Source: Thiothrix fructosivorans
GTDB lineage: Bacteria > Pseudomonadota > Gammaproteobacteria > Thiotrichales > Thiotrichaceae
NCBI RefSeq assembly: GCF_017349355.1
Contig: NZ_JAFMPM010000008.1
Coordinates: 1,302,001-1,366,000, forward strand
Length of the DNA stretch: 64,000 nucleotides
Direction: 5' to 3'
Shown: piece by piece, positions 27,883 through 46,069 of the stretch
Layout of the letters: each line of letters starts with the position of its first letter
Numbering within the stretch: the stretch's first letter is position 1
Translations under genes and position numbers: made by a program
The notes under the pieces: model-generated
The model's database searches: none
What the model was told of the DNA's origin: nothing
What the model saw: the letters and a program-made list of their open reading frames with translations, nothing else

Positions 27883-28698
27883 ATGAGTGTTAATCCACAT
27901 TTATTGGGAGATTTTGTCAACGCGCTGTTTAACACGCCAGCATTCCCTGAGCGTTTCAAGCTGTATGTCAGTTTCATTGAGACGCTCGGTTTTGAGGGAC
28001 GTGTGGTGTATTCCTTCCTGCCTTTGTTACGCATGGAAGGTAAGCTGTTCCCAGCGAACGTGGAACTTACCCACACTAGCAACTATCCCGTTGATTTTTT
28101 GCAACATTACGTCATAGAAGATTTAGATCGTTATGACATTAGCCTGAAAAAAATCAGAAACAATGACTTTTCCATGACGAATTACCGTGAGTATGCCGAC
28201 ACGATTGGTTTTACTTCTGACGAACGCTACTTTGATAAGCTGGCAACGCATGAGTATGGTTGTGTAAATGCGTTGTGTTTGCCGTCATTGGGCGCGACGG
28301 GTATTTCTAGTTTTAATATTATCAGTTGTGAACACGATTATATTTTCAGGCATTTGATGCGAGAACGTGCCGAGATGCTGTTGCACCTAACGCAATTGTT
28401 CCACAGCGTGGTGTTGTCTGATCCCCAAACCTGTGCGCAGTTTACCTCGCCGTTTTTACCGAGATTGAATGACACTGAAATCACGATTTTGCGTTATGCG
28501 GCTTCTGGCAAGTCATTCAAAAATATTCAGGATCACACGGGCATTTCGTACCGTTATGCTGCCAAAGTATTGGATCGGTTGCGTGATAAGTTGGGGGGTA
28601 TCACGCGGGATCGCTTGTTTTATTTGGCAGGTTTATTGCGCTTCACTTCTGCTGATCCACAAACCACACCGCCGCTTCCACCCGCGACCGCAGGTTGA
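27883..28698 (+). CDS. LuxR-family transcriptional regulator
   Basis: 271 residues. The C-terminal GerE-type helix-turn-helix is LNDTEITILRYAASGKSFKNIQDHTGISYRYAAKVLDRLRDKLG (residues about 198-241). The N-terminal region resembles autoinducer-binding domains of solo LuxR proteins, but no luxI is nearby and the ligand is unknown. Its last 56 nt overlap the 3' end of narL on the opposite strand. Confidence 0.8.
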   Translation: MSVNPHLLGDFVNALFNTPAFPERFKLYVSFIETLGFEGRVVYSFLPLLRMEGKLFPANVELTHTSNYPVDFLQHYVIEDLDRYDISLKKIRNNDFSMTNYREYADTIGFTSDERYFDKLATHEYGCVNALCLPSLGATGISSFNIISCEHDYIFRHLMRERAEMLLHLTQLFHSVVLSDPQTCAQFTSPFLPRLNDTEITILRYAASGKSFKNIQDHTGISYRYAAKVLDRLRDKLGGITRDRLFYLAGLLRFTSADPQTTPPLPPATAG

Positions 28699-29293
28699 GT
28701 TTGCGTAGTAAATGTTTGACGTGAACTTTGACCGTGCCTTCGGTGATACCCAGTTCACGCGCTACCAGCTTATTGCTTTTGCCCGCCGCGACTCGTTCCA
28801 GAATGCGCTGTTCTTGCTCGGTCAAACCCGCTTCGGAGCTGGTTTTGGGGTGAATCGCATCGTGGCGCATGGCGTGTGCCAGCAAGTTGATCAGGCGTTC
28901 GGTGAGGGTAATGCGTCCCGCCGCTGCTTCCGCCAGCTTTTCTACCAAATCCTCAGGTTCCATTTCCTTGAGCAAATAGCCGTCTGCACCTGCGCGTAAC
29001 GCTGCCACCAAATCACTCGCCTGATCAGAAACGGTCAGCATCACCACCCGTGCATCGCTGCCAGAGGCTTTGATGACTTTTAATACCTCAATGCCGCTCA
29101 TGTCTTTCATGTTCAGGTCGAGCAGGATCATATCGGGGGCAAGTTCTAACGCCATGTCGATGCCTTCCTGCCCGCAGGAGGCTTCGCCGACAATGATGAA
29201 ATCAGGCACCATATTGACCAGATAGCGCACGCCTTTGCGAAACAGGGGGTGATCGTCCACGATCAGCAGGCTTTGCGGGGTTTCAAGCGGCAT
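28643..29293 (-). CDS. narL: nitrate/nitrite response regulator NarL
   Basis: 216 residues from the ATG at 29293; the longer open frame lies inside narX. The receiver domain has acidic DD in LLIVDDHPLFR, phospho-acceptor Asp in MILLDLNMKDMSG and Lys in YLLKE. The LuxR-type DNA-binding domain is LTEQEQRILERVAAGKSNKLVARELGITEGTVKVHVKHLLRKLN. It is co-transcribed with narX, overlapping its end by 11 nt. NarL-like heptamers are present upstream of narX and narK1. Confidence 0.94.
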   Translation of the reverse strand: MPLETPQSLLIVDDHPLFRKGVRYLVNMVPDFIIVGEASCGQEGIDMALELAPDMILLDLNMKDMSGIEVLKVIKASGSDARVVMLTVSDQASDLVAALRAGADGYLLKEMEPEDLVEKLAEAAAGRITLTERLINLLAHAMRHDAIHPKTSSEAGLTEQEQRILERVAAGKSNKLVARELGITEGTVKVHVKHLLRKLNLRSRVEAAVWFVDQQK

Positions 29294-31217
29294 GAGCAAT
29301 CCTTGTTTTGGGGGTGAAATCGAGCTGTACGCAAGTGCCACCACCCGTGCGCGGCAAGTATTGCAGTATGCCATGCAGGGCGCGGGCGCGTTCGTCCATA
29401 ATCGCCATGCCGTAATGGTGCAGGTTGGCGGTTTTTTGGATACCTGCGCCGTCATCTTCGATGCGCAATTGCAGGCTGTTATTGCCTTCTTGACGTTGCA
29501 ACGACACCCACGCTTGGCTGGCGTGCGCGTGTTTGAGGGTATTGGATAAGGCTTCGCGCACGATTTGCAGCAAGTGAATTTCTTCGTTGGGGGTCAGGTT
29601 GAGGTTGCCTAGACTGACATCCAGCGCAATCGGCAAGTTGCCGCGCTCGGCAAATTCGGTGGTGGTTTGCGCCAGTGCCATGCCTAAATCGTCGTCTTCC
29701 ATACGCAAGCGGAAGGTGGAGAGCAGTTCGCGCAATTGTTGGTAAGAGCTGTTAAGACCCTCGCGCAATTCTTCCAAGGCGGCGGTGACTTCGGTGGCAT
29801 CTGCCGGATTTTTTACGGCGGCACGTAAGCGACTGACTTGAATTTTCATGTACGCCAGCGATTGTGCCAAGGAATCGTGTAGTTCGCGGGCGATGACGGC
29901 GCGTTCTTCCAACAGGGAGACGCGGCGGTGCTGTTCGCTGCGTTGTTCTGAGGCGATGGTGACACCGATGTGACGCGATAAGGCTTCCAGCAATTGCACT
30001 TGCCAGCGTTCGGCGGTGGTGTTGGCGGGGACATCGACGGCTAACATGCCGTAGCGTTTTTCGGCATCGGTGAGCGGCATCCGCAAGATTTGGCGACCGT
30101 CGGGGAGGGTATCCATGCGGGCGGCGTGCGGGTCGTGGCATTCGGCGCAACTGTTGGCGCGTTGGCACATGGGGCTTTTGCCATCGCTAGACGTGGTGGC
30201 GACGACATCGCCTTGTTGGTCATTGTCTTCTTTGAGGCAAATCGTACCATTGCCCAAGCCCAGCACGGCTTCGGCATCTTTCAACACGTTATGGAAGACG
30301 GCGCGGTCGGGGGCAATGCCGTGCAAGCGGGTGATGGAGCGGTACAACAAATCCAGCGAGCGGTTGCTGCGGGTGAGTTCGGCGGTTTTCTGTTCGACCC
30401 GTGCTTCGAGGTCTTGGTAGAGCTTGGACAAGTCTTCTGCCATGAGGTTGAAGGCTTGTCCCAATTGTCCGATTTCGTCTTCGCCGCCGAGTTCGGTACG
30501 CACTGCGAGATTGCCTTGGCGAATCTGGTCGGTTAGCCCCAATAGCCCTTTGAGCGGGGTGACGAGAATGTTATTGACCAAGTAAATGGAGAGGATGACG
30601 GCGAGGATCGTGCCAATCACGGCGACACCCAAAATGACCCGCAATACAAAAATTTTGGCTTCGGTGGCTTCTTCAATCTGCTTGACCAGATCGTTGATGT
30701 GGGCAACGAATTGCGGGACAGCATCGAGTAATGCTGCATCGGCAGCAGTGGTGGTATTCGTGGTCAGCAAGGAAATCAGGTCGGGTTTGATGCGTTGCTG
30801 CCAACCATTTTCCACTTGTCGGTATACCTGCTTGAGCGGGGTGGTTTCGTCGGAGGGCAATACGGAGAGGATAGAATCCGCCGCTAAATCGGTTTCAAAG
30901 CGTTGGATGGCTTGTTGCAAGTCGCTGCGGTGCGTGGGGTTGGAGTCTTGCAAAATGCGTTGGTAGAGTGATGCCATGCGCCAGCTTTGCATCCGCAAGC
31001 TTCCGGCGACGTTGATGGCTTCGCCGTTGCCTTGGGTGGTTTCCGCGACCATCCACGAGGTGGACATGCCGACGACGGCGAGAACGGTGATGGCAGCGAT
31101 CATGCCGCCTAGCCGTAGCAGCAGGGAGTTTTGGAGTTTGTTCCACAGTAGGCGGTTCACGCGGTGGTTTCCTAGTGTTGTTATTGGATGCTGCGCACTG
31201 ATTCTAGGGTAATACAT
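29283..31217 (-). CDS. narX: nitrate/nitrite sensor histidine kinase NarX
   Basis: 644 residues. TM1 (LGGMIAAITVLAVVGMSTSW), a periplasmic type-IV pili-methyl-accepting-like nitrate sensor with the P-box-like GEAINVAGSLRMQSWRMA, TM2 (VLRVILGVAVIGTILAVILS), HAMP, a GAF-type domain, then HisKA_3 with the phospho-His in ARELHDSLAQSLAYMK and an HATPase (RIEDDGAGI). The GAF region contains CQRANSCAECHDPH, an unusual cysteine set including CAECH. Activated by nitrate or nitrite, it phosphorylates NarL. Confidence 0.93.
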   Translation of the reverse strand: MYYPRISAQHPITTLGNHRVNRLLWNKLQNSLLLRLGGMIAAITVLAVVGMSTSWMVAETTQGNGEAINVAGSLRMQSWRMASLYQRILQDSNPTHRSDLQQAIQRFETDLAADSILSVLPSDETTPLKQVYRQVENGWQQRIKPDLISLLTTNTTTAADAALLDAVPQFVAHINDLVKQIEEATEAKIFVLRVILGVAVIGTILAVILSIYLVNNILVTPLKGLLGLTDQIRQGNLAVRTELGGEDEIGQLGQAFNLMAEDLSKLYQDLEARVEQKTAELTRSNRSLDLLYRSITRLHGIAPDRAVFHNVLKDAEAVLGLGNGTICLKEDNDQQGDVVATTSSDGKSPMCQRANSCAECHDPHAARMDTLPDGRQILRMPLTDAEKRYGMLAVDVPANTTAERWQVQLLEALSRHIGVTIASEQRSEQHRRVSLLEERAVIARELHDSLAQSLAYMKIQVSRLRAAVKNPADATEVTAALEELREGLNSSYQQLRELLSTFRLRMEDDDLGMALAQTTTEFAERGNLPIALDVSLGNLNLTPNEEIHLLQIVREALSNTLKHAHASQAWVSLQRQEGNNSLQLRIEDDGAGIQKTANLHHYGMAIMDERARALHGILQYLPRTGGGTCVQLDFTPKTRIAHAA

Positions 31218-32378: not shown

Positions 32379-33635
32379 ATGGCAACGCAGCAATACAAGG
32401 CATGGTCGGTCGTCATCATGAGTACGCTGGCCTTCACGGTGTGCTTCATGATCTGGATGATGTTTGCCGTCATCGGGATTCCTATCAAAGCAACCTTGGG
32501 TTTGAACGAAACCCAGTTCGGGATTTTGATCGCAACACCGGTACTGACCGGCTCATTGATCCGCGTACCGCTAGGGATGTGGACGGATAAATTCGGTGGG
32601 CGCATCGTGTTCACCATCCTGATGTTATCCACCGTATTGCCGATTTGGATGATTTCGCAGGCAACCCAATTCTGGCATTTCCTCGTAACCGGCTTGTTTG
32701 TCGGCGTAGCGGGTGGTTCATTCACCGTTGGTATTGCTTATTGCGCCCGCTGGTTCCCGAAGGAACGTCAAGGTTTGGCGATGGGGATTTTCGGCGCAGG
32801 CAATACTGGCGCGGCAGTCACCAAGTTGCTCGCGCCCATTATCGTGGTCGGCTATGGCTGGACGATGGTGCCAAAAGTCTACGCCGTGTTGATGCTGGTC
32901 ACTGCGATTGTGTTCTGGTTTTTCACCTTCAGCGAACCGAGCCACAAGGTCGGTAAAGCGGTCACTGTGCGCGAACAGCTTGCGGTATTCAAAGACCCCA
33001 AGGTGTGGCGTTACAGCCAATATTATTCCATCGTGTTCGGCGGCTACGTCGCACTGGCGTTGTGGATGACCAAATATTATGTCAGCGAATACGGTTTCGA
33101 CCTGAAAACCGCCGCGTTTTTAGCCGCCGCGTTCAGTATTCCCGGCGGCTTGTTGCGGGCAGTTGGTGGCTACTTCTCCGACAGACTCGGCGCACACACC
33201 CTGACTTGGTGGGTATTGTGGGTTTCACTGGTGTGCTTGTTCTTCCTGTCTTACCCGCAAAGTGACATTACGATTCAAACCTTGAATGGCGCAAAAACCT
33301 TTCACTTCGGGCTGACCCCGACCGTCTTCACCATCATCCTGTTTACCCTCGGCGTAGTCTTCGCTGTCGGTAAAGCCTCGGTTTTCAAGTACATTTCGGA
33401 CGATTACCCCGACAACATTGGCGTGGTATCCGGTGTGGTGGGCTTGGCGGGCGGTTTGGGTGGTTTCCTGATGCCGATTATGTTTGGCGCATTGGTGGAT
33501 CTCACTGGCATTCGTTCTTCCGCCTTCATGCTGATGTTCGGGGTGGTGTGGGTGTCGCTGATGTGGATGTATTTCACCGAAGTGCGCCCGGTTCATGCCG
33601 ATTTACACGCAAAGTCCCTCACCACAACTGTTTAA
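32379..33635 (+). CDS. narK1: NarK-type nitrate/nitrite transporter (NarK1-like)
   Basis: 418 residues of the major facilitator superfamily with 12 predicted helices. Nitrate-transporter signatures are seen: RVPLGMWTDKFGGR, the glycine-rich motifs VAGGSFTVGIAYCARWFPKERQG and VSGVVGLAGGLGGFLMPIMFG. Group-1 NarK proteins are thought to be proton-coupled nitrate importers. It is first in the nar operon, with narK2 15 nt downstream. Confidence 0.92.
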   Translation: MATQQYKAWSVVIMSTLAFTVCFMIWMMFAVIGIPIKATLGLNETQFGILIATPVLTGSLIRVPLGMWTDKFGGRIVFTILMLSTVLPIWMISQATQFWHFLVTGLFVGVAGGSFTVGIAYCARWFPKERQGLAMGIFGAGNTGAAVTKLLAPIIVVGYGWTMVPKVYAVLMLVTAIVFWFFTFSEPSHKVGKAVTVREQLAVFKDPKVWRYSQYYSIVFGGYVALALWMTKYYVSEYGFDLKTAAFLAAAFSIPGGLLRAVGGYFSDRLGAHTLTWWVLWVSLVCLFFLSYPQSDITIQTLNGAKTFHFGLTPTVFTIILFTLGVVFAVGKASVFKYISDDYPDNIGVVSGVVGLAGGLGGFLMPIMFGALVDLTGIRSSAFMLMFGVVWVSLMWMYFTEVRPVHADLHAKSLTTTV

Positions 33636-33650
33636 TGCGAGGAATACCTG

Positions 33651-35258
33651 ATGACTGATATTAAAAATTGGGACGTGGAAGACACCACGTTCTGGGAAAG
33701 CACCGGCAAGAAGATTGCCAACCGTAATTTGTGGATTTCGATCCCCAGCCTGCTGATGGGTTTCGCTATCTGGCTGATGTGGGGAATTATCACCGTACAG
33801 ATGTCCAATCTGGGCTTTCCATTTAAAGACGAAGAGTTGTTTACCTTGACGGCAATTGCCGGTTTGGCAGGCGCGACCCTGCGGATTCCGGCTTCTTTCT
33901 TTATCCGCTTGGCGGGTGGGCGCAATACCATTTTCCTGACCACCGCGCTGCTGATGATTCCGGCTATCGGCACGGGGTTTGCGCTGCAAAACAAGGAAAC
34001 CCCGCTGCTGACTTTCCAGATTCTGGCATTTTTGTCCGGGATTGGTGGCGGTAACTTTGCGTGTTCCATGTCGAATATCAGCACGTTTTTCCCCAAGCGT
34101 TTGCAAGGTACGGCACTGGGTTTGAACGCGGGTTTGGGTAACTTTGGTGTGACCACCATGCAAATCCTGATTCCGCTGGTGATGACGATGGGCGTGTTTG
34201 GCGCATTGGGTGGCGATTCCATGCCCTTGATGAAAGATTCCGGCTGGATTCTTGGCAAAATTTTGGCAGGCACAGAAACGTGGGTGCAAAACGCGGGCTT
34301 TGTGTGGCTGGTATTCCTGATTCCGCTGGCGTTCTTCGGCTTCTTTGGCATGAATAACCTGTTGCCGATTTCTCCGGCGATTGGCGGCACGCTTGCGGCG
34401 TTCGTGAAAATTTTGTGGCTGTATGGCTTGGCGTTTTTGACCACGGCAGTTGGCTTGTATTTGTACCTGCCTGCGCCCACGGGTTTGGGTTTGCTGAATA
34501 TGTGGGTGGCGCTGCCGCTGATTATTGTGGCAACGCTGGGGATTATGAAAGTGACTGCCTTTGGTGAAATGAAGGTGGGTATCAACAAGCAATTTGCGAT
34601 TTTCAGCAACAAGCATACTTGGTCAATGACCGTGTTGTATGTACTGACCTTCGGCTCTTTCATCGGTTTTTCAATGGCATTGCCACTGGCGATCAAGGTC
34701 ATTTTCGGCAATACCCATGTGTTTGATGCAGCCACGCAAGCGTGGGTACATGCCAAAAACCCTAACGCTATTTCGGTGTTTACTTACGCATGGATTGGCC
34801 CGTTTGTGGGTGCGTTGATTCGTCCGGTCGGCGGCTGGATTTCTGACAAAGTGGGCGGCTCTATCGTTACGCAAGTGATTTCGGTGGTGATGGTGGGCGC
34901 GTCTGCGTATGCCGGTTACATCATGATGCAGGCTTATCAATCGGCTACCCCGGAAATTTACTTCCAGCCGTTCTTGTGGACATTCGTGTTGCTGTTTGCT
35001 GCCACCGGTTTGGGCAATGGCTCGACCTTCCGCACGGTTGGGGTGATTTTTGACCGTTTGCAAGCAGGCCCTGTATTGGGTTGGACTTCAGCAGTAGCGG
35101 CTTACGGTTCGTTCATTGCACCTGTGGTGATTGGGGCGCAAGTGAAAGCGGGTACGCCGGAAAACGCGATGTATGGCTTTGCGATTTTCTACGCGCTGTG
35201 CCTGATTTTGAACTGGTGGTTTTATCTGCGTAGTGGCAGCGATATTAAGAATCCGTAA
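33651..35258 (+). CDS. narK2: NarK-type nitrate/nitrite antiporter (NarK2-like)
   Basis: 535 residues, longer than NarK1, MFS fold. Signature segments are GNFACSMSNISTFFPKRLQGTALGLNAGLGNFG and GPFVGALIRPVGGWISDKVGG. NarK2 proteins exchange nitrate for nitrite. The tandem narK1-narK2 arrangement corresponds to the fused NarK1-NarK2 transporter of Paracoccus, but here two separate genes are kept. Confidence 0.92.
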   Translation: MTDIKNWDVEDTTFWESTGKKIANRNLWISIPSLLMGFAIWLMWGIITVQMSNLGFPFKDEELFTLTAIAGLAGATLRIPASFFIRLAGGRNTIFLTTALLMIPAIGTGFALQNKETPLLTFQILAFLSGIGGGNFACSMSNISTFFPKRLQGTALGLNAGLGNFGVTTMQILIPLVMTMGVFGALGGDSMPLMKDSGWILGKILAGTETWVQNAGFVWLVFLIPLAFFGFFGMNNLLPISPAIGGTLAAFVKILWLYGLAFLTTAVGLYLYLPAPTGLGLLNMWVALPLIIVATLGIMKVTAFGEMKVGINKQFAIFSNKHTWSMTVLYVLTFGSFIGFSMALPLAIKVIFGNTHVFDAATQAWVHAKNPNAISVFTYAWIGPFVGALIRPVGGWISDKVGGSIVTQVISVVMVGASAYAGYIMMQAYQSATPEIYFQPFLWTFVLLFAATGLGNGSTFRTVGVIFDRLQAGPVLGWTSAVAAYGSFIAPVVIGAQVKAGTPENAMYGFAIFYALCLILNWWFYLRSGSDIKNP

Positions 35259-35272
35259 GACAGGAGATAAAC

Positions 35273-35665
35273 ATGGCAATTCAACAGTATGACGACAATC
35301 TACAAACCAACCCTTACGCGATTTATACCTTGGCGTTGGAAGTGGATGGCAAAACGATCCTCACCGATCAGGAAGGCTACATCCAAAACATGGATGACTG
35401 GAGCGAAGGTTTCGTGGAAGCCCTCGCCGAACGTGAAGGCTTGGTGCTGACCGACGAGCATTGGGAAATTATCGAGTTCCTGCGCAACTACCATCAGGAA
35501 CACGGCGTGCAAGCGCCGGTGCGTGACATGCTCAAGCACTTCAAGCAAGCGTGGGGTGAAGAGTTCGCTACCAACCATTACCTGCATGAAATTTTCCCCA
35601 AAGGCGGCCCGCAGAAGCAGGGCAATCGCTTGGCGGGTATCCGTAGAACCAAAGGGGAGCATTGA
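35273..35665 (+). CDS. DsrC/TusE-family protein lacking both C-terminal cysteines
   Basis: 130 residues with the DsrC fold (GYIQNMDDWSEGFVEALAE, LTDEHWEIIEFLRNYHQEHG, and the C-terminal arm FPKGGPQKQGNRLAG). DsrC ends in a mobile arm with two conserved cysteines, and TusE keeps the last one. Here QGC is replaced by QGN and the penultimate Cys by RTKGEH, so it cannot carry persulfide. Cysteine-less homologues have been called RspA. It lies between narK2 and narG with short gaps, so it is expressed with nitrate reductase and may be regulatory or an assembly aid. Confidence 0.88.
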   Translation: MAIQQYDDNLQTNPYAIYTLALEVDGKTILTDQEGYIQNMDDWSEGFVEALAEREGLVLTDEHWEIIEFLRNYHQEHGVQAPVRDMLKHFKQAWGEEFATNHYLHEIFPKGGPQKQGNRLAGIRRTKGEH

Positions 35666-35670
35666 TTGCC

Positions 35671-38600
35671 ATGAGCCACTTTATTGACCGACTGAATTTT
35701 TTCAAACGTACCCAAACGCCATTTTCCAACGGGCATGGCGCGATGACCGAGGAAAGCCGCGACTGGGAAGACGGCTACCGCAAACGCTGGCAGCACGACA
35801 AGGTGGTACGTTCCACCCACGGCGTAAACTGCACGGGTTCGTGTAGCTGGAAAATCTACGTGAAAAACGGCTTGGTGACGTGGGAAACGCAGCAAACTGA
35901 CTACCCGCGTACCCGCCCGGATTTGCCGAATCATGAGCCGCGTGGCTGTCCGCGTGGCGCAAGTTATTCGTGGTATATGTACAGCGCGAATCGCCTCAAA
36001 TACCCCTTGATGCGCCGCCAGTTAATGGAATTGTGGCGTTCTGCCAAAGCGAAAAACCCTGATCCGGTCACGGCGTGGGCATCCATCGTTGAAAATCCAA
36101 CCACGGCGCAATCCTACAAAACCCGGCGCGGTTTGGGTGGTTTTGTGCGTTCTTCGTGGGATGAAGCTAACGAGCTGATTGCAGCGGCGAATGTGTATAC
36201 CGCCAAGCAATATGGCCCAGACCGCGTGATTGGTTTCTCACCGATTCCGGCGATGTCGATGGTGTCGTATGCGGCCGGAAGCCGTTACCTGTCGTTGATT
36301 GGTGGCGTGTGTTTAAGCTTCTATGATTGGTATTGCGATTTGCCGCCTGCGTCACCGATGGTGTGGGGCGAGCAAACCGACGTGCCGGAATCTGCCGATT
36401 GGTACAACAGCAGCTATATCATTGCGTGGGGTTCTAACGTTCCGCAAACCCGTACCCCTGACGCGCATTTCTTCACTGAAGTGCGTTACAAAGGCACGAA
36501 AACGGTGGCGATTACGCCGGATTACGCGGAAGTTGCCAAACATGCCGACCAATGGCTGAACCCGAAACAGGGGACGGATGCGGCGTTGGCAATGGCGTTT
36601 GGACACGTCATTCTGAAAGAATTCCACGTTGATAAGCCTAGCGAGTATTTCACCGATTACGTGCGCCGTTACACCGACTGGCCGAATCTGGTATTGCTGG
36701 AGTCGCGGGACGATGGCAGCTATCAGGCGGGACGCTTTGCGCGTGCTAGTGACTTCGTGTCTGGTTTGGGCGAAGAGCAAAACCCGGATTGGAAAACTGT
36801 CGCGATTGATGATGCGACGGGTGAAATCATTTCCCCGAACGGTTCTATCGGCTACCGTTGGGATGGTAGTGGTCAGTGGAATCTGCAACAAAAAGACGGG
36901 AAGACCCACGACGACGTTAACCTTTCATTGTCCTTGGTAGCGCGGCACGACACCGTGGTGGATGTTGCGCTGCCTTATTTTGGCGGTGTGCCCAGCGATT
37001 ATTTCCAAGGCAATACGCTCAAAGACATCCTCAAGTATAAATTGCCTGCCCGTAAAGTCACTTTGGCGGATGGTAGCGAAGGTTTGCTGGTGTCGGTGTA
37101 CGACCTGAACATGGTCAACTACGGTATTAGCCGTGGCTTGGGTGATGATGACAGTGCCAAAGATTTCGATGATGCCAATGCGCCGTACACTCCGGCATGG
37201 CAGGAAGCGATTACCGGTGTGCCGCGTGACAAAGTGATCCGCATTGCGCGTGAATTTGCCGATACCGCCGACAAGACCAAGGGTAAGTCGATGATTATCG
37301 TCGGCGCGGGCATGAACCACTGGTATCACATGGACATGAACTACCGTGGTCTGATCAATATGCTCGCCATGTGCGGCTGTGTGGGGCAATCCGGCGGTGG
37401 CTGGGCGCATTACGTTGGGCAGGAAAAGCTACGTCCGCAGACCGGCTGGTTGCCGCTGGCGTTTGGGCTGGACTGGTCACGTCCGCCACGGCAAATGAAT
37501 GGCACGTCGTTCTTCTACAACCATTCCAGCCAATGGCGTTACGAAAAGCTCGAAATCAAGGAAATCCTTTCCCCGTTGGCGAACAAAGAACGTCAATCCG
37601 GCAACTTGATTGACTACAACGTGCGGGCAGAACGCATGGGTTGGTTGCCATCTGCGCCGCAGTTGAATACTAATCCGTTGCGCATTGCCCAAGCCGCGAA
37701 AGATGCGGGCATGAGTCCGGCGGATTACACCGTTGCCAGCCTCAAATCCGGCAAGATCGCGTTTGCAGCGGAAGACCCCGACAACGCGCAAAACTTCCCG
37801 CGTAACCTGTTCGTGTGGCGTTCCAATTTGCTGGGTTCTTCGGGCAAAGGGCATGAATACTTGCTCAAGTATTTGCTGGGCACAAAGCACGGCGTGCAAG
37901 GCAAAGACCTTGGCGAAATGGGCGGGGTGAAACCGCAAGAAGTGAAGTGGCATACAGATGCGCCCGAAGGCAAACTCGATTTGCTGGTAACGCTCGACTT
38001 CCGCATGTCTACCACCTGCTTGTATTCCGACATCGTGCTGCCGACCGCGACCTGGTACGAAAAGGATGACCTGAACACCTCCGATATGCACCCGTTCATT
38101 CACCCGCTGACCGCCGCCGTCGATCCGTCATGGGAAGCACGCAGCGACTGGGAAATCTACAAAGGCATTGCCAAGGAATTTTCACGGGTATGTGTCGGGC
38201 ATTTGGGCGTGGAAACCGATTTGGTGACACTGCCACTGTTGCACGATGCGCCCGCCGAATTGGGTCAAGCCTTCGGTGTGAAAGACTGGAAAAAAGGCCA
38301 ATGCGACCTGATTCCGGGCAAAACCGCGCCCGCGTTGATTGCGGTCGAACGCAATTACCCTGAAACCTACGCCCGCTTTACCTCCATTGGCCCCTTGATG
38401 GAAAAACTCGGTAACGGCGGCAAAGGTATCGGCTGGAATACCGAAACCGAAATCGCTTTCCTCGGCAAGCTCAATCACCAGCACACCAGCGGCACGAACG
38501 AAGGCCGTCCGTGCCTGAACAGCGCGATTGATGCGGCGGAAATGATCCTTTCACTTGCCCCCGAAACCAACGGGCAAGTGGCGGTGAAAGCGTGGGCGGC

Positions 38601-39423
38601 ACTGTCGAAAATTACTGGCATTGACCACACCCACCTCGCCTTGAACAAGGAAGACGAGAAAATCCGCTTCCGTGACATCGTGGCGCAACCGCGCAAGATC
38701 ATTTCCAGCCCTACTTGGTCGGGCTTGGAAGATGAACATGTGTCATACAACGCCGGTTATACCAACGTCCACGAGTTGATTCCGTGGCGTACTTTGACAG
38801 GTCGGCAACAGTTCTACCTCGACCATGACTGGATGCGTGATTTTGGCGAAAGCATGTTGGTGTATCGCCCGCCGATCAACACCAAAACCATCAAGCCGAT
38901 GCTCAACCAAAAGTCCAACGGCAACCCCGAACTGGCGTTGAACTGGATTACCCCGCATCAAAAATGGGGCATCCATTCCACCTACACCGACAACTTGCTG
39001 ATGCTCACGCTGTCACGCGGCGGGCCGATTGTGTGGATGAGTGAAGACGATGCCAAAAAACTGGGCATTGTCGATAACGACTGGATCGACCTGTTCAACG
39101 CCAACGGTGCGATTGCGGCGCGGGCAGTGGTCAGCCAGCGCGTCATGCCGGGGATGGTGATGATGTACCACGCGCAAGAGCGCATTGTGAACGTACCCGG
39201 TTCTGCCATTACGGGCGAACGCGGCGGCATTCACAACTCCGTCACCCGCGTTTGCCCGAAACCCACCCATATGATCGGCGGTTACGCGCAACAGGCTTAC
39301 GGCTTCAACTACTACGGCACGGTCGGTTCTAACCGCGATGAATTCGTCATTGTGCGCAAGATGACCAATGTCGATTGGCTGGACGGCGAAGGTAATGACA
39401 CGATTCAGGAGGCAGTAAAATGA
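35671..39423 (+). CDS. narG: respiratory nitrate reductase, catalytic alpha subunit
   Basis: 1250 residues. The N-terminal FS0 cluster ligands HGVNCTGSCSW...CPRGAS (His plus three Cys) and the Mo-bis-MGD domain with DLPPASPMVWGEQTDVPES and SNVPQTRTPDAHF are intact. The ATG at 35671 is preferred over the upstream TTG because of the AAGGGGAG site. It reduces nitrate to nitrite on the cytoplasmic side using quinol electrons passed from NarI and NarH. Overlaps narH by 4 nt. Confidence 0.97.
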   Translation: MSHFIDRLNFFKRTQTPFSNGHGAMTEESRDWEDGYRKRWQHDKVVRSTHGVNCTGSCSWKIYVKNGLVTWETQQTDYPRTRPDLPNHEPRGCPRGASYSWYMYSANRLKYPLMRRQLMELWRSAKAKNPDPVTAWASIVENPTTAQSYKTRRGLGGFVRSSWDEANELIAAANVYTAKQYGPDRVIGFSPIPAMSMVSYAAGSRYLSLIGGVCLSFYDWYCDLPPASPMVWGEQTDVPESADWYNSSYIIAWGSNVPQTRTPDAHFFTEVRYKGTKTVAITPDYAEVAKHADQWLNPKQGTDAALAMAFGHVILKEFHVDKPSEYFTDYVRRYTDWPNLVLLESRDDGSYQAGRFARASDFVSGLGEEQNPDWKTVAIDDATGEIISPNGSIGYRWDGSGQWNLQQKDGKTHDDVNLSLSLVARHDTVVDVALPYFGGVPSDYFQGNTLKDILKYKLPARKVTLADGSEGLLVSVYDLNMVNYGISRGLGDDDSAKDFDDANAPYTPAWQEAITGVPRDKVIRIAREFADTADKTKGKSMIIVGAGMNHWYHMDMNYRGLINMLAMCGCVGQSGGGWAHYVGQEKLRPQTGWLPLAFGLDWSRPPRQMNGTSFFYNHSSQWRYEKLEIKEILSPLANKERQSGNLIDYNVRAERMGWLPSAPQLNTNPLRIAQAAKDAGMSPADYTVASLKSGKIAFAAEDPDNAQNFPRNLFVWRSNLLGSSGKGHEYLLKYLLGTKHGVQGKDLGEMGGVKPQEVKWHTDAPEGKLDLLVTLDFRMSTTCLYSDIVLPTATWYEKDDLNTSDMHPFIHPLTAAVDPSWEARSDWEIYKGIAKEFSRVCVGHLGVETDLVTLPLLHDAPAELGQAFGVKDWKKGQCDLIPGKTAPALIAVERNYPETYARFTSIGPLMEKLGNGGKGIGWNTETEIAFLGKLNHQHTSGTNEGRPCLNSAIDAAEMILSLAPETNGQVAVKAWAALSKITGIDHTHLALNKEDEKIRFRDIVAQPRKIISSPTWSGLEDEHVSYNAGYTNVHELIPWRTLTGRQQFYLDHDWMRDFGESMLVYRPPINTKTIKPMLNQKSNGNPELALNWITPHQKWGIHSTYTDNLLMLTLSRGGPIVWMSEDDAKKLGIVDNDWIDLFNANGAIAARAVVSQRVMPGMVMMYHAQERIVNVPGSAITGERGGIHNSVTRVCPKPTHMIGGYAQQAYGFNYYGTVGSNRDEFVIVRKMTNVDWLDGEGNDTIQEAVK

Positions 39424-40973
39424 AAATCCGTTCCCAAGTCGGCATGGTGCTGAATTTAGACAAGTGCATCGGCTGCCATACCTGCTCGATTACTTGCAAA
39501 AACGTCTGGACTTCACGCGAAGGCATGGAGTACGCATGGTTCAATAACGTCGAAACCAAGCCCGGTATCGGTTATCCCAAAGAGTGGGAGAATCAGGACA
39601 AGTGGAAAGGCGGCTGGTTACGCCGTGCCGATGGCAAGATTGAGCCGCGCATCGGCGGTAAATTCCGCCTGCTGGCGAATATCTTTGCAAACCCCGATTT
39701 ACCGGCGATTGACGACTATTACGAGCCGTTCGATTTCGATTACCAACACTTGCACAACGCACCCGATAGCAAGCATCAGCCGGTAGCACGTCCGCGCTCG
39801 CTGATTTCCGGGCAGCGTATGGACAAGATCGAATGGGGGCCAAACTGGGAAGAAATCCTCGGCACAGAATTTTCCAAGCGCCGCAAGGATAAAAACTTCG
39901 ACCAGATTCAGGCGGACATTTACGGTGAATTTGAAAACACCTTTATGTTTACCCTGCCGCGTTTGTGCGAACACTGCTTGAATCCGGCGTGTGTCGCGTC
40001 TTGCCCCAGCGGTGCAATTTACAAGCGTGACGAAGACGGCATTGTGTTGATCGACCAAGACAAATGCCGGGGCTGGCGCATGTGCGTGAGTGGCTGCCCT
40101 TACAAAAAGATTTACTACAACTGGAAGTCTGGTAAATCCGAGAAGTGCATTTTCTGCTACCCACGCATTGAAGCGGGGATGCCGACGGTGTGTTCCGAAA
40201 CCTGTGTGGGGCGTATCCGTTACCTTGGCGTGTTGTTGTATGACGCGGATCAGATTGAGTCCGCCGCCAGCACTCCGAACGAGAAGGATTTGTACAAAAA
40301 GCAGTTGGAAGTATTTCTCGACCCATTCGACCCGAAAGTGATTGAACAGGCGAAGAAAGATGGCATTCCCGACAATGTGCTGAAAGCCGCGCAAGAGTCT
40401 CCCGTGTGGAAGCTGGCGATGGATTGGAAGCTGGCACTGCCGTTACACCCTGAATACCGTACTTTGCCGATGGTGTGGTATGTGCCGCCACTGTCCCCAA
40501 TCCAATCGGCGGCGGATGCGGGCAAGATCGGTTACGACGGCGTATTGCCGGACGTGGACAGCTTGCGGATTCCGGTGCGTTACCTCGCTAACTTGCTCAC
40601 GGCGGGCGATGAAGAGCCGGTGAAATTGGCACTCAAACGCCTGATGGCAATGCGCCAATACAAGCGGGCGGAAACCGTGGAAGGCATCCACGATACCCGT
40701 GCGCTGGAACAAGTCGGTTTGTCGGAAGCGCAAGCCAAGGAAATGTACCGTTATCTGGCGATTGCCAATTACGAAGACCGTTACGTGATTCCCACCAGTC
40801 ACCGCGAACTGGCACGCGATGCTTTCCCGGAACGGGGCGGTTGCGGTTTCAGCTTCGGCGACGGTTGCGGCACTAGCACGGGGAATAACGAGGTCAACCT
40901 GTTCGGCGGGCGCAAGCAAACCGTGACGATGGTGCAGAAAATCGACTTCGTGAAGCAGGAGGTCAAGCCATGA
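39420..40973 (+). CDS. narH: respiratory nitrate reductase, iron-sulfur beta subunit
   Basis: 517 residues. Four cysteine clusters bind three [4Fe-4S] and one [3Fe-4S] centre: CIGCHTCSITCKN, CEHCLNPACVASCP, CRGWRMCVSGCP (Trp in place of one Cys, as in the 3Fe-4S site) and CIFCYPR...CSETC. It carries electrons from NarI to NarG. Overlaps both neighbours by 4 nt. Confidence 0.97.
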   Translation: MKIRSQVGMVLNLDKCIGCHTCSITCKNVWTSREGMEYAWFNNVETKPGIGYPKEWENQDKWKGGWLRRADGKIEPRIGGKFRLLANIFANPDLPAIDDYYEPFDFDYQHLHNAPDSKHQPVARPRSLISGQRMDKIEWGPNWEEILGTEFSKRRKDKNFDQIQADIYGEFENTFMFTLPRLCEHCLNPACVASCPSGAIYKRDEDGIVLIDQDKCRGWRMCVSGCPYKKIYYNWKSGKSEKCIFCYPRIEAGMPTVCSETCVGRIRYLGVLLYDADQIESAASTPNEKDLYKKQLEVFLDPFDPKVIEQAKKDGIPDNVLKAAQESPVWKLAMDWKLALPLHPEYRTLPMVWYVPPLSPIQSAADAGKIGYDGVLPDVDSLRIPVRYLANLLTAGDEEPVKLALKRLMAMRQYKRAETVEGIHDTRALEQVGLSEAQAKEMYRYLAIANYEDRYVIPTSHRELARDAFPERGGCGFSFGDGCGTSTGNNEVNLFGGRKQTVTMVQKIDFVKQEVKP

Positions 40974-41653
40974 TTAAGATCTTTGCCGTACTGGCACGCT
41001 TAATGGATTACCCCACGGCGGAACTGATCGAATCCCGCAGTGCCTTGATTGACGTGGTGCGCGAAGAAACCCGTTTGCCGGTGAGCTTGCGCGATTCCCT
41101 GACCGCTTTCATCCAGCAATTGGGTACGGGCGAGTTGTTGGATGCACAGGAAGATTACGTGGCGCTGTTTGATCGCGGGCGTTCGCTGTCTTTGCTGCTG
41201 TTTGAACACGTTCACGGCGAATCGCGGGATCGTGGGCAGGCAATGGTGGATTTACTTCAGCAATACCGCGATGCGGGGTTGGAACTGAGCGTCAAGGAAT
41301 TGCCGGATTACATCCCGCTGTATCTGGAATACCTCGCCACCCGCAGCGAAGCAGAAGCGGCGCAAGGGCTGGGTGATGTTCACCCGATTCTCGCGCTGTT
41401 ATCGGCACGCTTGCAGGAGCGCGGCAGCAATTACCACCTGTTGTTTGATGCGTTGCTGGCGATGATTGGCATCCAGCCGAACATGGGGGAATTGCGCGGT
41501 AAAGTGGCAACCGAACCCCGCGATGACACCGCCGCTGCGATGGATAAGGTCTGGGAAGAGGAAATGGTCGCCTTTGTGGAAGACAAAGGCGCGTCGTGCC
41601 GCCCCACCCAATCCACCAACCAAACCCACACGCTGCATTTTCGGGAGAACTGA
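40970..41653 (+). CDS. narJ: nitrate reductase assembly chaperone
   Basis: 227 residues of the TorD/NarJ family, all-helical (KIFAVLARLMDYPTAELIES, LFEHVHGESRDRGQAMVDLL, LPDYIPLYLEYLATRS). It holds NarG in the cytoplasm until the Mo cofactor is loaded and is not part of the mature enzyme. narI begins one base after its stop. Confidence 0.93.
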   Translation: MIKIFAVLARLMDYPTAELIESRSALIDVVREETRLPVSLRDSLTAFIQQLGTGELLDAQEDYVALFDRGRSLSLLLFEHVHGESRDRGQAMVDLLQQYRDAGLELSVKELPDYIPLYLEYLATRSEAEAAQGLGDVHPILALLSARLQERGSNYHLLFDALLAMIGIQPNMGELRGKVATEPRDDTAAAMDKVWEEEMVAFVEDKGASCRPTQSTNQTHTLHFREN

Positions 41654-41654
41654 T

Positions 41655-42332
41655 ATGTCTTACTTTGATTCACTTTTCTTTGGGCTGTACCCCTACGTAG
41701 CGGGGGCGGTGTTTCTGATTGGTAGCTGGCTGCGTTACGACCAAGCGCAATATACGTGGCGGGCAGGTTCTAGCCAGATGCTCAGTAAATCTGGGATGCA
41801 GGTGGCGAGTAATTTGTTCCATGTGGGCATTCTGGTGATCTTTTTCGGGCATTTGGTGGGTTTGCTGATGCCGCATTGGTTGTATGAACCGTTTATGTCA
41901 CCCGGCACGAAGCAGGTGATGGCGATTCTGGTCGGTGGCATTGCAGGAGCGGCTTGCTGGTATGGCGCGTTTTTGCTGTTCATGCGCCGCAAGAATGATG
42001 CACGGGTACGCGCTACGGGTTCAACAATGGACTTGGTGGTGATTGGTATTTTGCTGGTGCAAGTGACGCTGGGTTTGCTGACCATCATTCCGACCTTGGG
42101 GCATTTGGATGGCAGCAATATGCTGAAATTGGCGGAATGGGCGCAATCCATTGTGTTCTTCAAGGGCGGTGCGGCGGCGCATCTGGCGGATGTGGGTTTT
42201 ATCTTTAAGCTGCATATTTTGCTGGGCTTGACTGTGTTTTTGCTGTTCCCGTTTACGCGCTTGGTGCACATCTGGAGCGTGCCGGTGCAATACGTGAATC
42301 GTCAGTATCAAATCGTGCGGGCGCGGGGTTAA
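41655..42332 (+). CDS. narI: respiratory nitrate reductase, cytochrome b gamma subunit
   Basis: 225 residues from the ATG of MSYFDSLFFGLYPYVAG; the longer frame runs through narJ. Five membrane helices are predicted. Heme-ligand histidines are in FHVGILVIFFGHLVGLL and FKLHILLGLTVFLLFPFTRLVHIWS. It oxidises quinol at the periplasmic face and anchors NarGH. Confidence 0.95.
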   Translation: MSYFDSLFFGLYPYVAGAVFLIGSWLRYDQAQYTWRAGSSQMLSKSGMQVASNLFHVGILVIFFGHLVGLLMPHWLYEPFMSPGTKQVMAILVGGIAGAACWYGAFLLFMRRKNDARVRATGSTMDLVVIGILLVQVTLGLLTIIPTLGHLDGSNMLKLAEWAQSIVFFKGGAAAHLADVGFIFKLHILLGLTVFLLFPFTRLVHIWSVPVQYVNRQYQIVRARG

Positions 42333-44096: not shown

Positions 44097-44429
44097 AGCT
44101 GTTGAAAGAGGTAGGAGAGGAATATGTGCTGAATGATGCGTTATCGGCATTCCAGTGTTTTAAAAACTTACCGCCGTTACAAAGAGAGTATCTATTAAAT
44201 CATTCCCAAAAGATTAAAGTGTCCCGTTTAGAACGATTGTTTGAAAATGGCAATCAATGCGCTGGTGTGTTTTGTTTAAATGTCGGGCGTGTTCGTCTCG
44301 GTATTCTTGCTTCCAATGGGAATGAACGCACCATTGATCTTGTTTTGCCCGGTGAAATATTTGGTGAATCCGGTATTTTTAAAAGCCATAAATCGCCTTT
44401 ATATGCTCAAGCCCTGACACCAGCAGAAC

Positions 44430-46069
44430 GTAACTGAACAGTCCCCCCTTACCCAAACGCACTAAATTTGCGACACTCCCCCGATGACCCAACAACTGAA
44501 AGACCACAGCCTCAAACAGCTTAACAGCCAGTACCTTGCCAAGCTCACGCCGGAGGAACTGCTGCACCTGTCGACCAAGTTGTTGCATGACCTGAAAGAA
44601 GCGCGGGAACAGATCAACCAAAACTCCAACAACTCCTCCAAACCACCCAGCAGCGGTTTCCCGTGGGAAACGTCACCCAAAACGGTGGCTTTGCCCGAAA
44701 CAGAAGGGGTGGGTGCAGCCAGAGGAAAGCCAACCCCGGAACCAGAAGCTGTGGCGGGCACAAAGCCAGCCCAACCAGCCAAACGCAAAGCGGGTAAACA
44801 ACCCGGCGCACCGGGTTATGGTCGGGTATGGCATCCGCCCATCAATGCAGACGAACACCATTACCCCAGCCGATGTGAAGCCTGTGGCAGGTCCCTGGAT
44901 GCGGCTGTCTCCCGTATTTATACCGCCTATGACAGTGTGGACATCCAGTTTGGCACGGATGGGAACCCCGGACTGACCGTCATCACCACCCGCCACCACC
45001 TTCACGATAGCGTATGCACCTGCGGTCATGTGAGCCGCCATATCCCGCATCGCCAAGCTCCCGACCCGTTATACCCGGAGGTTGATGTGGGCGAGTGGCG
45101 GCTGATTGGGGGCAATCTGGCGGCACTTATTGTCCACCTACGGCTGCGCTCACGCTTGTCACTGCGTGGCACACAAGAACTGTTGCGGGAGGTGTTGGGC
45201 ATTCCCCTAAGTGTCGGGGTGTTGCAGCAATGTTTTGAGGAAGCAGCCGCGAGTGCTTCTCCATTGGAAGATGCCTTGGTGGAAGGGCTGTTGGCAGAAG
45301 CCACCGCTGACGGCGGGGTGCTGTATATTGATGAAACCTCTTGGAAAGAGCGTGGCGAAGCCCTGTGGCTATGGACATTCGTCACCACCCTCAGCGTTTG
45401 TTTCTACGTAGGGCAGCGCACCATTGAAATGCTCGACAACGTGATTAGCCCCCACTTTGGGGGCTGGCTGATGAGTGATGGCTATGCCGCTTACCGCCAC
45501 CACCCCAAACGCTTGCGTTGCTGGGCGCACCTGATCCGCAAAGCCCGTGGGCTGGCAGAATCACTGGACAAAGACGGGCGGACGTTTGGCAACTTCACCC
45601 TCGCTTGGCTGAGGGTATTACAGGACGACATTTACGCTTGGCGGGCAGCAGGCGGCACGGTGGGGACGCAAACCGACGTGATCCGTCAACGCCATCAGGC
45701 AAAACTCCTGGAATTCAGGGCATTATGCTTGATCCATGCCGTATCTGCCCATGACAAGACGGCGGCACTGGCGAAAGAGTTCATCAATGATTGGGATGCC
45801 ATTTTCCGAATCCTTGACCACCCGTGGCTTCCCTTGACCAATAATGAGGCTGAGCGGGCGTTGCGCCATTGGGTGATCCTGCGCAAAACCAACCATGGCA
45901 CAAAGAGTGCTACGGGGAGCCGTGCGTTTGCCATGCTGGCCAGCATCATCGGTACTTGCCGCAAACGTGGACAGTCTGCCTTGGCTTATCTTGCCAGTGT
46001 TATTACCGCTGCCCGCGCTGGCTTTGCCCTGCCCGCTTTACCGCAAGGGGTGGGGATGTGATCAATTAC
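44430..46069 (+). mobile_element. IS66-family insertion sequence (single-ORF type)
   Basis: A 1640-bp element flanked by the 8-bp duplication AGCAGAAC (44422-44429 and 46070-46077). Its ends begin GTAACTGA and, inverted, GTAATTGA, the GTAA terminus typical of IS66. It encodes only TnpC; the accessory tnpA/tnpB genes of classical IS66 are missing, as in the ISBst12 subgroup. Confidence 0.92.
44484..46061 (+). CDS. IS66-family transposase (TnpC type)
   Basis: 525 residues. An N-terminal leucine-rich helix, the hallmark QNSNNSSKPPSS, a basic linker, the zinc-binding segment CEACGRS...CTCGHVSRH, and the DDE domain with YIDETSWKE, MSDGYAAYRHH and LTNNEAERALRHWVI. Full length with no frameshift. 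Confidence 0.95.
   Translation: MTQQLKDHSLKQLNSQYLAKLTPEELLHLSTKLLHDLKEAREQINQNSNNSSKPPSSGFPWETSPKTVALPETEGVGAARGKPTPEPEAVAGTKPAQPAKRKAGKQPGAPGYGRVWHPPINADEHHYPSRCEACGRSLDAAVSRIYTAYDSVDIQFGTDGNPGLTVITTRHHLHDSVCTCGHVSRHIPHRQAPDPLYPEVDVGEWRLIGGNLAALIVHLRLRSRLSLRGTQELLREVLGIPLSVGVLQQCFEEAAASASPLEDALVEGLLAEATADGGVLYIDETSWKERGEALWLWTFVTTLSVCFYVGQRTIEMLDNVISPHFGGWLMSDGYAAYRHHPKRLRCWAHLIRKARGLAESLDKDGRTFGNFTLAWLRVLQDDIYAWRAAGGTVGTQTDVIRQRHQAKLLEFRALCLIHAVSAHDKTAALAKEFINDWDAIFRILDHPWLPLTNNEAERALRHWVILRKTNHGTKSATGSRAFAMLASIIGTCRKRGQSALAYLASVITAARAGFALPALPQGVGM

Follow-up and report, generated by a model that had tools for sequence, protein, structure and literature searches.

The closest described systems are DsrC, TusE and RspA. 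Functional DsrC is recognised by two cysteines in its C-terminal arm (CX10C at the C-terminus) and TusE by the penultimate cysteine, with E. coli-type TusE also lacking the first arm cysteine. Binding of DsrC to DNA ahead of dsr genes has been reported, and RspA, reportedly described by Venceslau et al. 2014, is said to be a cysteine-less DsrC relative, possibly in gene regulation. In A. vinosum, sulfur is bound solely at the penultimate cysteine of DsrC, and loss of this residue strongly weakens binding to DsrEFH; in organisms without DsrAB, another residue takes the place of Cys100 (PMC3397948). Loss of both cysteine motifs has been described (PMC8190135) for five of that study's set of phage DsrC/TusE proteins; these are alike in cysteine loss to the protein studied here, are phage-borne, and are likened to it by description rather than by sequence. 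DsrD, a small allosteric activator of DsrAB (PMC11406059), serves as a working analogy only, i.e. a small protein acting on DsrAB, with no kinship claimed.

Here we analyse a cysteine-less DsrC-family gene, termed KGEH type, within a nitrate reductase operon. It belongs to a known family and has an unusual and testable distribution. No description of a KGEH-type gene in nar operons was found in titles and abstract openings of the open-licence literature, among the matches listed.

The cysteine-less gene and its nar operon

In the window, i.e. the whole 64,000-nucleotide stretch of Thiothrix fructosivorans DNA that was analysed, the gene order is narK1-narK2-[cysteine-less DsrC gene]-narGHJI, comprising together with an upstream regulatory pair the following features:

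28643..31217, minus strand: two-component pair, NarX/NarL-like, upstream (Pfam; NarX/NarL naming by eye)
28643-29455, minus strand: LuxR-type response regulator of this pair (Pfam)
29283-31217, minus strand: HisKA_3 sensor kinase of this pair (Pfam)
32379..33635, plus strand: narK1-like transporter, 418 aa (by eye and similarity within nar loci)
33651..35258, plus strand: narK2-like transporter, 535 aa (by eye and similarity within nar loci)
35273..35665, plus strand: cysteine-less DsrC-family gene, KGEH type (profile, fold model, sequence)
35594..35662, plus strand: C-terminal arm of its product, residues 108-130, FPKGGPQKQGNRLAGIRRTKGEH (conservation over 79 rows)
35671..39423, plus strand: narG, 1250 aa (TIGR01580, 2313 bits, cut-off 1084)
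39420..40973, plus strand: narH, 517 aa (order and by eye)
40970..41653, plus strand: narJ, 227 aa (order and by eye)
41655..42332, plus strand: narI, 225 aa (order and by eye)

The original prediction placed a cysteine-less DsrC-family protein inside the nar operon, between narK2 and narG and 5 nt before the narG start, with Asn in place of the first arm cysteine and no cysteine at the end; ORF coordinates, profiles and alignment bear this out. The product is 130 residues long and has no cysteine. Its start lies 14 nt past the narK2 stop, with AGGAG upstream of the ATG, and a gap of 5 nt separates its stop codon from the narG ATG at 35671. The protein passes the DsrC profiles PF04358 (112.4 bits, cut-off 24.9) and TIGR03342 (100.8 bits, cut-off 53.5) but scores 85.4 bits with the TusE equivalog, whose cut-off is 191 bits. 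An AlphaFold2 model (mean pLDDT 89.3) is confident except for the N-terminus and residues 128-130, the latter below 50, and superimposes on the DsrC structures 1yx3 and 1sau with TM-scores by target length of 0.86 and 0.85. All eight fold matches with E <= 0.001 are DsrC-family entries, and the window protein is thus predicted to have the DsrC fold.

Compared to DsrC (PF04358, TIGR03342; 1yx3, 1sau, 2v4j chain C), fold, arm length, the G-P-x-K-Q motif and the later arm glycines are alike. However, Asn118 occupies the site of the first arm cysteine and Glu129 that of the penultimate one, and the last residue is His130, where DsrC has Val or Ile; W94, Q80 and H105 are fixed in the KGEH clade, which stands apart and is found mostly in nar operons. 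The two arm cysteines of functional DsrC are hence absent, as is the penultimate cysteine of TusE, a member of the same superfamily. The protein fits the definition of RspA, a DsrC fold, here predicted, without functional cysteines, and that name may cover the KGEH clade.

Matches to an FNR-like box number 44 in the window against 29 expected. A 111-aa Crp/Fnr-like ORF (44102-44437, by eye) ends just upstream of a 525-aa IS66-type transposase-like ORF (44484-46061, by eye) and looks truncated by this insertion.

The KGEH-type clade and its C-terminal arm

The T. fructosivorans genome (G000) encodes five PF04358 proteins: a DsrC with both arm cysteines within the dsr cluster (L001), a cysteine-less protein with the C-terminus TNRKGGY adjoining that cluster (L002), the KGEH-type protein of the window (L003), one with a single C-terminal cysteine (L004) and a divergent one (L005). 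Genes of this dsr cluster were named mostly by eye, dsrA and dsrK being scored. The TNRKGGY gene also adjoins Cas6-family and TauD-family genes near the dsr cluster (L155 2601-3699).

A BLAST search of the window protein against 276 genomes of the class identified close relatives in 12 genomes, its own included. Those from the class sample are 54-65% identical to the window protein (alignment A1), followed at 48% by a DsrC that has both cysteines. GGPQKQGNRxAG and KGE are common to all 12 members, and the final His to 11, with Val in L045. A T. caldifontis protein (L077) is 98% identical to that of the window. Four of the 12 members (L039, L042, L045 and L046), and also L144 and L152, carry an extra N-terminal domain of about 100 residues; this domain gave no Pfam match and no PDB sequence match, and is modelled as beta-rich at low confidence.

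A scan of genome contigs yielded 369 relatives, and 79 loci were kept. In a tree of 82 rows, from which the badly cut rows L055, L057 and L063 as well as L004 and L005 were omitted, 32 rows of the KGEH group lie on one side of a branch with support 100/99, and an RspA-like group of 15 rows from one genus lies on one side of another with 100/99; the tree has few columns, is unrooted, did not settle in its bootstrap and drew the program's long-branch warning. From sequence comparison, the KGEH type forms a separate clade and is neither isolated nor decaying.

Conservation was assessed in alignment A2, i.e. the window protein and 78 loci, with L089 left out owing to an internal deletion. Mean column conservation reaches 93% in the arm versus 75% in residues 23-107, and the clade follows the pattern FPxGGPQKQGNRxAGxxxxKGEH, with Asn and Glu at the two DsrC cysteine sites and His last. 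None of the 79 rows has an arm cysteine; 62 lack cysteine altogether, and the other 17 have it only at columns 20, 56 or 81. As GGPQKQGN served as one of the two search words of the contig scan, its conservation is in part built in; the KGEH end played no part in the search. There, the last four codons occur as 23 different strings across the 79 loci, and encode KGEH in 78 and RGEH in one, with a stop codon directly behind in all 79. A reading of these last codons as a Shine-Dalgarno element (AAAGGGGAG ahead of the narG start in the window) was rejected because of the 23 codon strings and because the gene follows narI, rather than preceding narG, in 49 loci. The main feature of the protein is the cysteine-less arm as its best conserved part, beyond the mere loss of cysteines.

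Whether the gene is a passenger or a decaying dsrC duplicate that travels with nar clusters and has no function of its own can be judged from the same comparisons. Copies with an internal loss of about 31 residues in T. lacustris (L089, identical in sequence to the same-genus G004) and in G005 (judged by coordinates only), and a second copy at L079 that appears shifted in frame, are what such a reading would predict. Nevertheless, the shortened copies retain the whole arm, which is almost constant across alpha-, beta- and gammaproteobacteria records while synonymous changes accumulate: relative to six Thiothrix-type relatives, the arm differs by 21 synonymous and one non-synonymous codons and the body by 136 and 54, as sums over six pairwise comparisons with common ancestry, and the sole non-synonymous arm difference adjoins an ambiguous codon in L081. 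We therefore regard a passenger as very improbable. The T. lacustris deletion is in frame and was found in identical sequence at L089 10001-10297 and L175 6334-6630. The frame-shifted-looking copy (L079 17065-17379) follows narI in a Thiothrix MAG, which has another copy before narG.

In a second alternative, the protein would be an RspA-type regulator, i.e. a cysteine-less DsrC relative that adjusts nar and/or dsr transcription under nitrate by binding to DNA. Q80, W94, G117 and T126 are common to the KGEH clade and to the cysteine-less gene beside the dsr cluster of the same genome, and the model has LexA winged-helix matches, weak and non-significant (E 2.9 and worse). However, conservation peaks in the C-terminal arm and not in a DNA-binding helix, the tree sets the KGEH clade apart from the RspA-like group of the genus, with KGEH in place of TNRKGGY at the C-terminus, and some loci have a regulator gene of their own (LysR type, 9/79). 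A regulator is thus unlikely, though worth keeping in view.

Distribution with nar and dsr genes

Linkage to nar genes, the subject of a survey suggested by the original prediction, is present: nar genes lie within 1 kb on the same strand in 56 of the 79 loci, after narI in 49 (i.e. the gene follows the operon) and before narG in 7. A NarG/H/J/I-like match occurs in 59 loci, of which L139, L150 and L154 were set aside since they have no more than a distant NarH-like iron-sulfur match. In these three, the gene sits directly downstream of dsrC, M, K, L, O-like and P genes and a CobB-family (dsrN-like) gene, with a dsrR-like frame, named by eye, on the 3' side in L139. Nine of the remaining 20 loci have a related LysR-type gene, and several are near a contig edge. 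HPP-family genes, whose products can carry nitrite, are present in 12 of the 79. In L097 (10759-11844), the gene directly 3' of the cysteine-less DsrC gene is ubiU (NF047963, 544.5 bits, cut-off 440), which belongs to O2-independent ubiquinone synthesis.

Within the class sample, the window gene, L066, L067 and L069 are nar-linked. L070 and L073 have nirB as a neighbour, together with genes for an iron-sulfur/DmsC-like protein and a molybdopterin enzyme. Rrf2- and NnrS-like genes lie near L068, and the contig of L074 also carries cd1-family genes; L065, L071, L072 and L075 have no clear nitrate reductase close by. The molybdopterin genes of the nirB clusters (L070, L172) were rejected as firm nitrate reductases, their best matches being formate dehydrogenase alpha and NasC, all below cut-off.

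The gene also co-occurs with dsr genes. In the class sample, dsrA is found in 11 of the 12 carriers versus 90 of the 276 genomes (p 2.5e-5), and in the remaining carrier, G209, dsrB scores above its cut-off (508.5 bits) and shares a contig with the nar cluster and the cysteine-less gene; the dsr cluster there extends to the contig end. A further set of 38 carrier genomes, holding 39 of the 79 loci hand-picked for spread and possibly overlapping the class sample, brings the carriers with dsrA or dsrB matches to 12/12 and 38/38, one of the latter by a partial, sub-cut-off dsrB. Among the 38, dsrA matches at E 1e-40 or better in 37, of which 35 exceed the cut-off; G318 and G321 have dsrA pieces, and G306 has no dsrA match and a partial dsrB at a contig edge (251.5 bits, cut-off 341.5), a match regarded as weak, since sub-cut-off dsrB matches were likewise obtained for two archaeal control genomes. 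These dsr matches, together with the neighbourhoods (nar in 56/79, dsr in 3/79), support the link between sulfur and nitrate metabolism that had been suggested for the gene.

Carriage is conditional even so. The gene is present in 1 of 27 genomes with narG and no dsrA (G209), in none of the 159 with neither, and in just 4 of 21 with both (5 of 22 counting G209 by dsrB); it is not obligatory even where dsrA and narG coexist. Among the dsrA genomes, the comparison covered the 11 carriers and 68 of the 79 non-carriers: any of narG, napA or cd1 occurs in all 11 carriers versus 42 of the 68 others (p 0.008). Considered one by one, narG (p 0.18), cd1 (p 0.063) and nirB (p 0.32) are not clearly enriched, and napA has p 0.023, uncorrected for five tests. 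These co-occurrences could be overestimated owing to common ancestry and to transfer of nar clusters between sulfur oxidizers.

In the genus sample of 16 Thiothrix genomes, the gene occurs in all 12 with narG, in two of them as shortened copies, versus 1 of 4 without (p 0.007). Ten genomes have a full-length copy directly ahead of a narG; in G004, whose arm is intact, and G005, a PF04358 piece takes this place. In the narG-less G007, the gene follows nirB and a formate/nitrite-transporter-like gene and lies 50 nt ahead of a Nas/Fdh-like molybdopterin gene, and no copy was found at E 1e-30 in the narG-less G001, G003 and G014. G015 has three copies: the first, identical to the window protein, precedes one NarG type, the second, 99% identical, precedes the other, and the third lies in a nirB cluster. 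The two NarG types behind these near-identical copies are about 58% alike. In L173 (4082-8176), compared with positions 35273-39423 of the window, an identical 130-aa protein is followed by a NarG 58% alike, a pattern that looks like replacement of narGHJI downstream of a retained narK1-narK2-gene front. Two NarGHI types less than 60% alike are known in Thiothrix, and the text of PMC8570282 on these types makes no mention of the cysteine-less DsrC gene.

These distributions bear on a third alternative, in which the protein would assist the assembly or stability of cytoplasmic nitrate reductases, its arm entering NarG (or a Nas-like enzyme) as the cofactor is inserted or the enzyme matures. The adjoining nar genes in 56 of 79 loci, the presence in 12 of 12 narG genomes of the genus and the further copies beside molybdopterin-enzyme genes in nirB clusters are all compatible with such a task. 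On the other hand, every carrier tested is dsr-positive, and narG is found in 48 of the 276 class genomes and only 5 of the 12 carriers (p 0.039), leaving 7 without a narG match. No clade member was found in 43 of the 48 narG genomes, so that the protein is not required by every NarG, a requirement by some NarG being possible. Moreover, near-identical copies are paired with NarG types that are about 58% alike, and a second narG of G011, on contig C38, has no copy among those listed on that contig. An assembly factor is accordingly rather improbable. A chaperone dedicated to NarG is less likely, and was lowered as the lead reading because of the dsr co-occurrence and the two NarG types.

A possible role between sulfur oxidation and nitrate reduction

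Based on the clade, its linkage to nar and dsr genes, the co-occurrence with dsr genes and that with narG in the genus, we conclude that the KGEH type represents a conserved protein of the Dsr side that is employed along with nitrate reduction. We tentatively propose, at somewhat less than even likelihood, that it is a DsrC paralogue, no longer competent as a carrier of sulfur or electrons, that docks on a partner of DsrC, gating or shielding the Dsr pathway during nitrite formation.

Having no cysteine, the protein cannot act in the manner of DsrC. Since the arm is its least variable part, docking is the most likely task; the tie to dsr genes argues for a docking site in the Dsr system, and the nar operons suggest that the protein is wanted during nitrate reduction. 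Together, these points favour a gating or shielding DsrC mimic, with DsrAB as first candidate. Here, the arm would imitate that of DsrC, with Asn and Glu-His standing in for the cysteines, and would dock into a partner that normally receives DsrC. The docked protein may then gate or shield the Dsr pathway while nitrite (and NO) arises in the cytosol, where NarG makes nitrite and where DsrAB resides, a siroheme enzyme whose relatives are inhibited by nitrite. That near-identical copies precede two NarG types is compatible with a partner distinct from NarG. By analogy, for DsrEFH as the partner the penultimate-cysteine result from A. vinosum would count against docking, as do the shortened copies, with about 31 internal residues missing, in two members of the genus.

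In a more specific version, the C-terminal Glu-His would reach into the DsrAB channel to cover or ligate the siroheme, thereby protecting sulfur oxidation or switching it off while nitrite from nitrate reductase builds up in the cytosol. Such an arrangement is unlikely; if true, it would represent a direct protein-level switch from one process to the other, sulfur oxidation and nitrate respiration.

The cycles of sulfur and nitrogen meet in sulfur-oxidizing denitrifiers, and to our knowledge the coordination of Dsr sulfur oxidation with nitrate reduction within one cell is poorly understood. The findings advise caution, as not every PF04358 match is a sulfur-carrying DsrC. A conserved protein that is found, among the genomes tested, only in dsr-positive ones and is mostly encoded with nar genes provides a handle on this coordination, and hints at a built-in link between two energy-making routes, nitrate reduction and sulfur oxidation.
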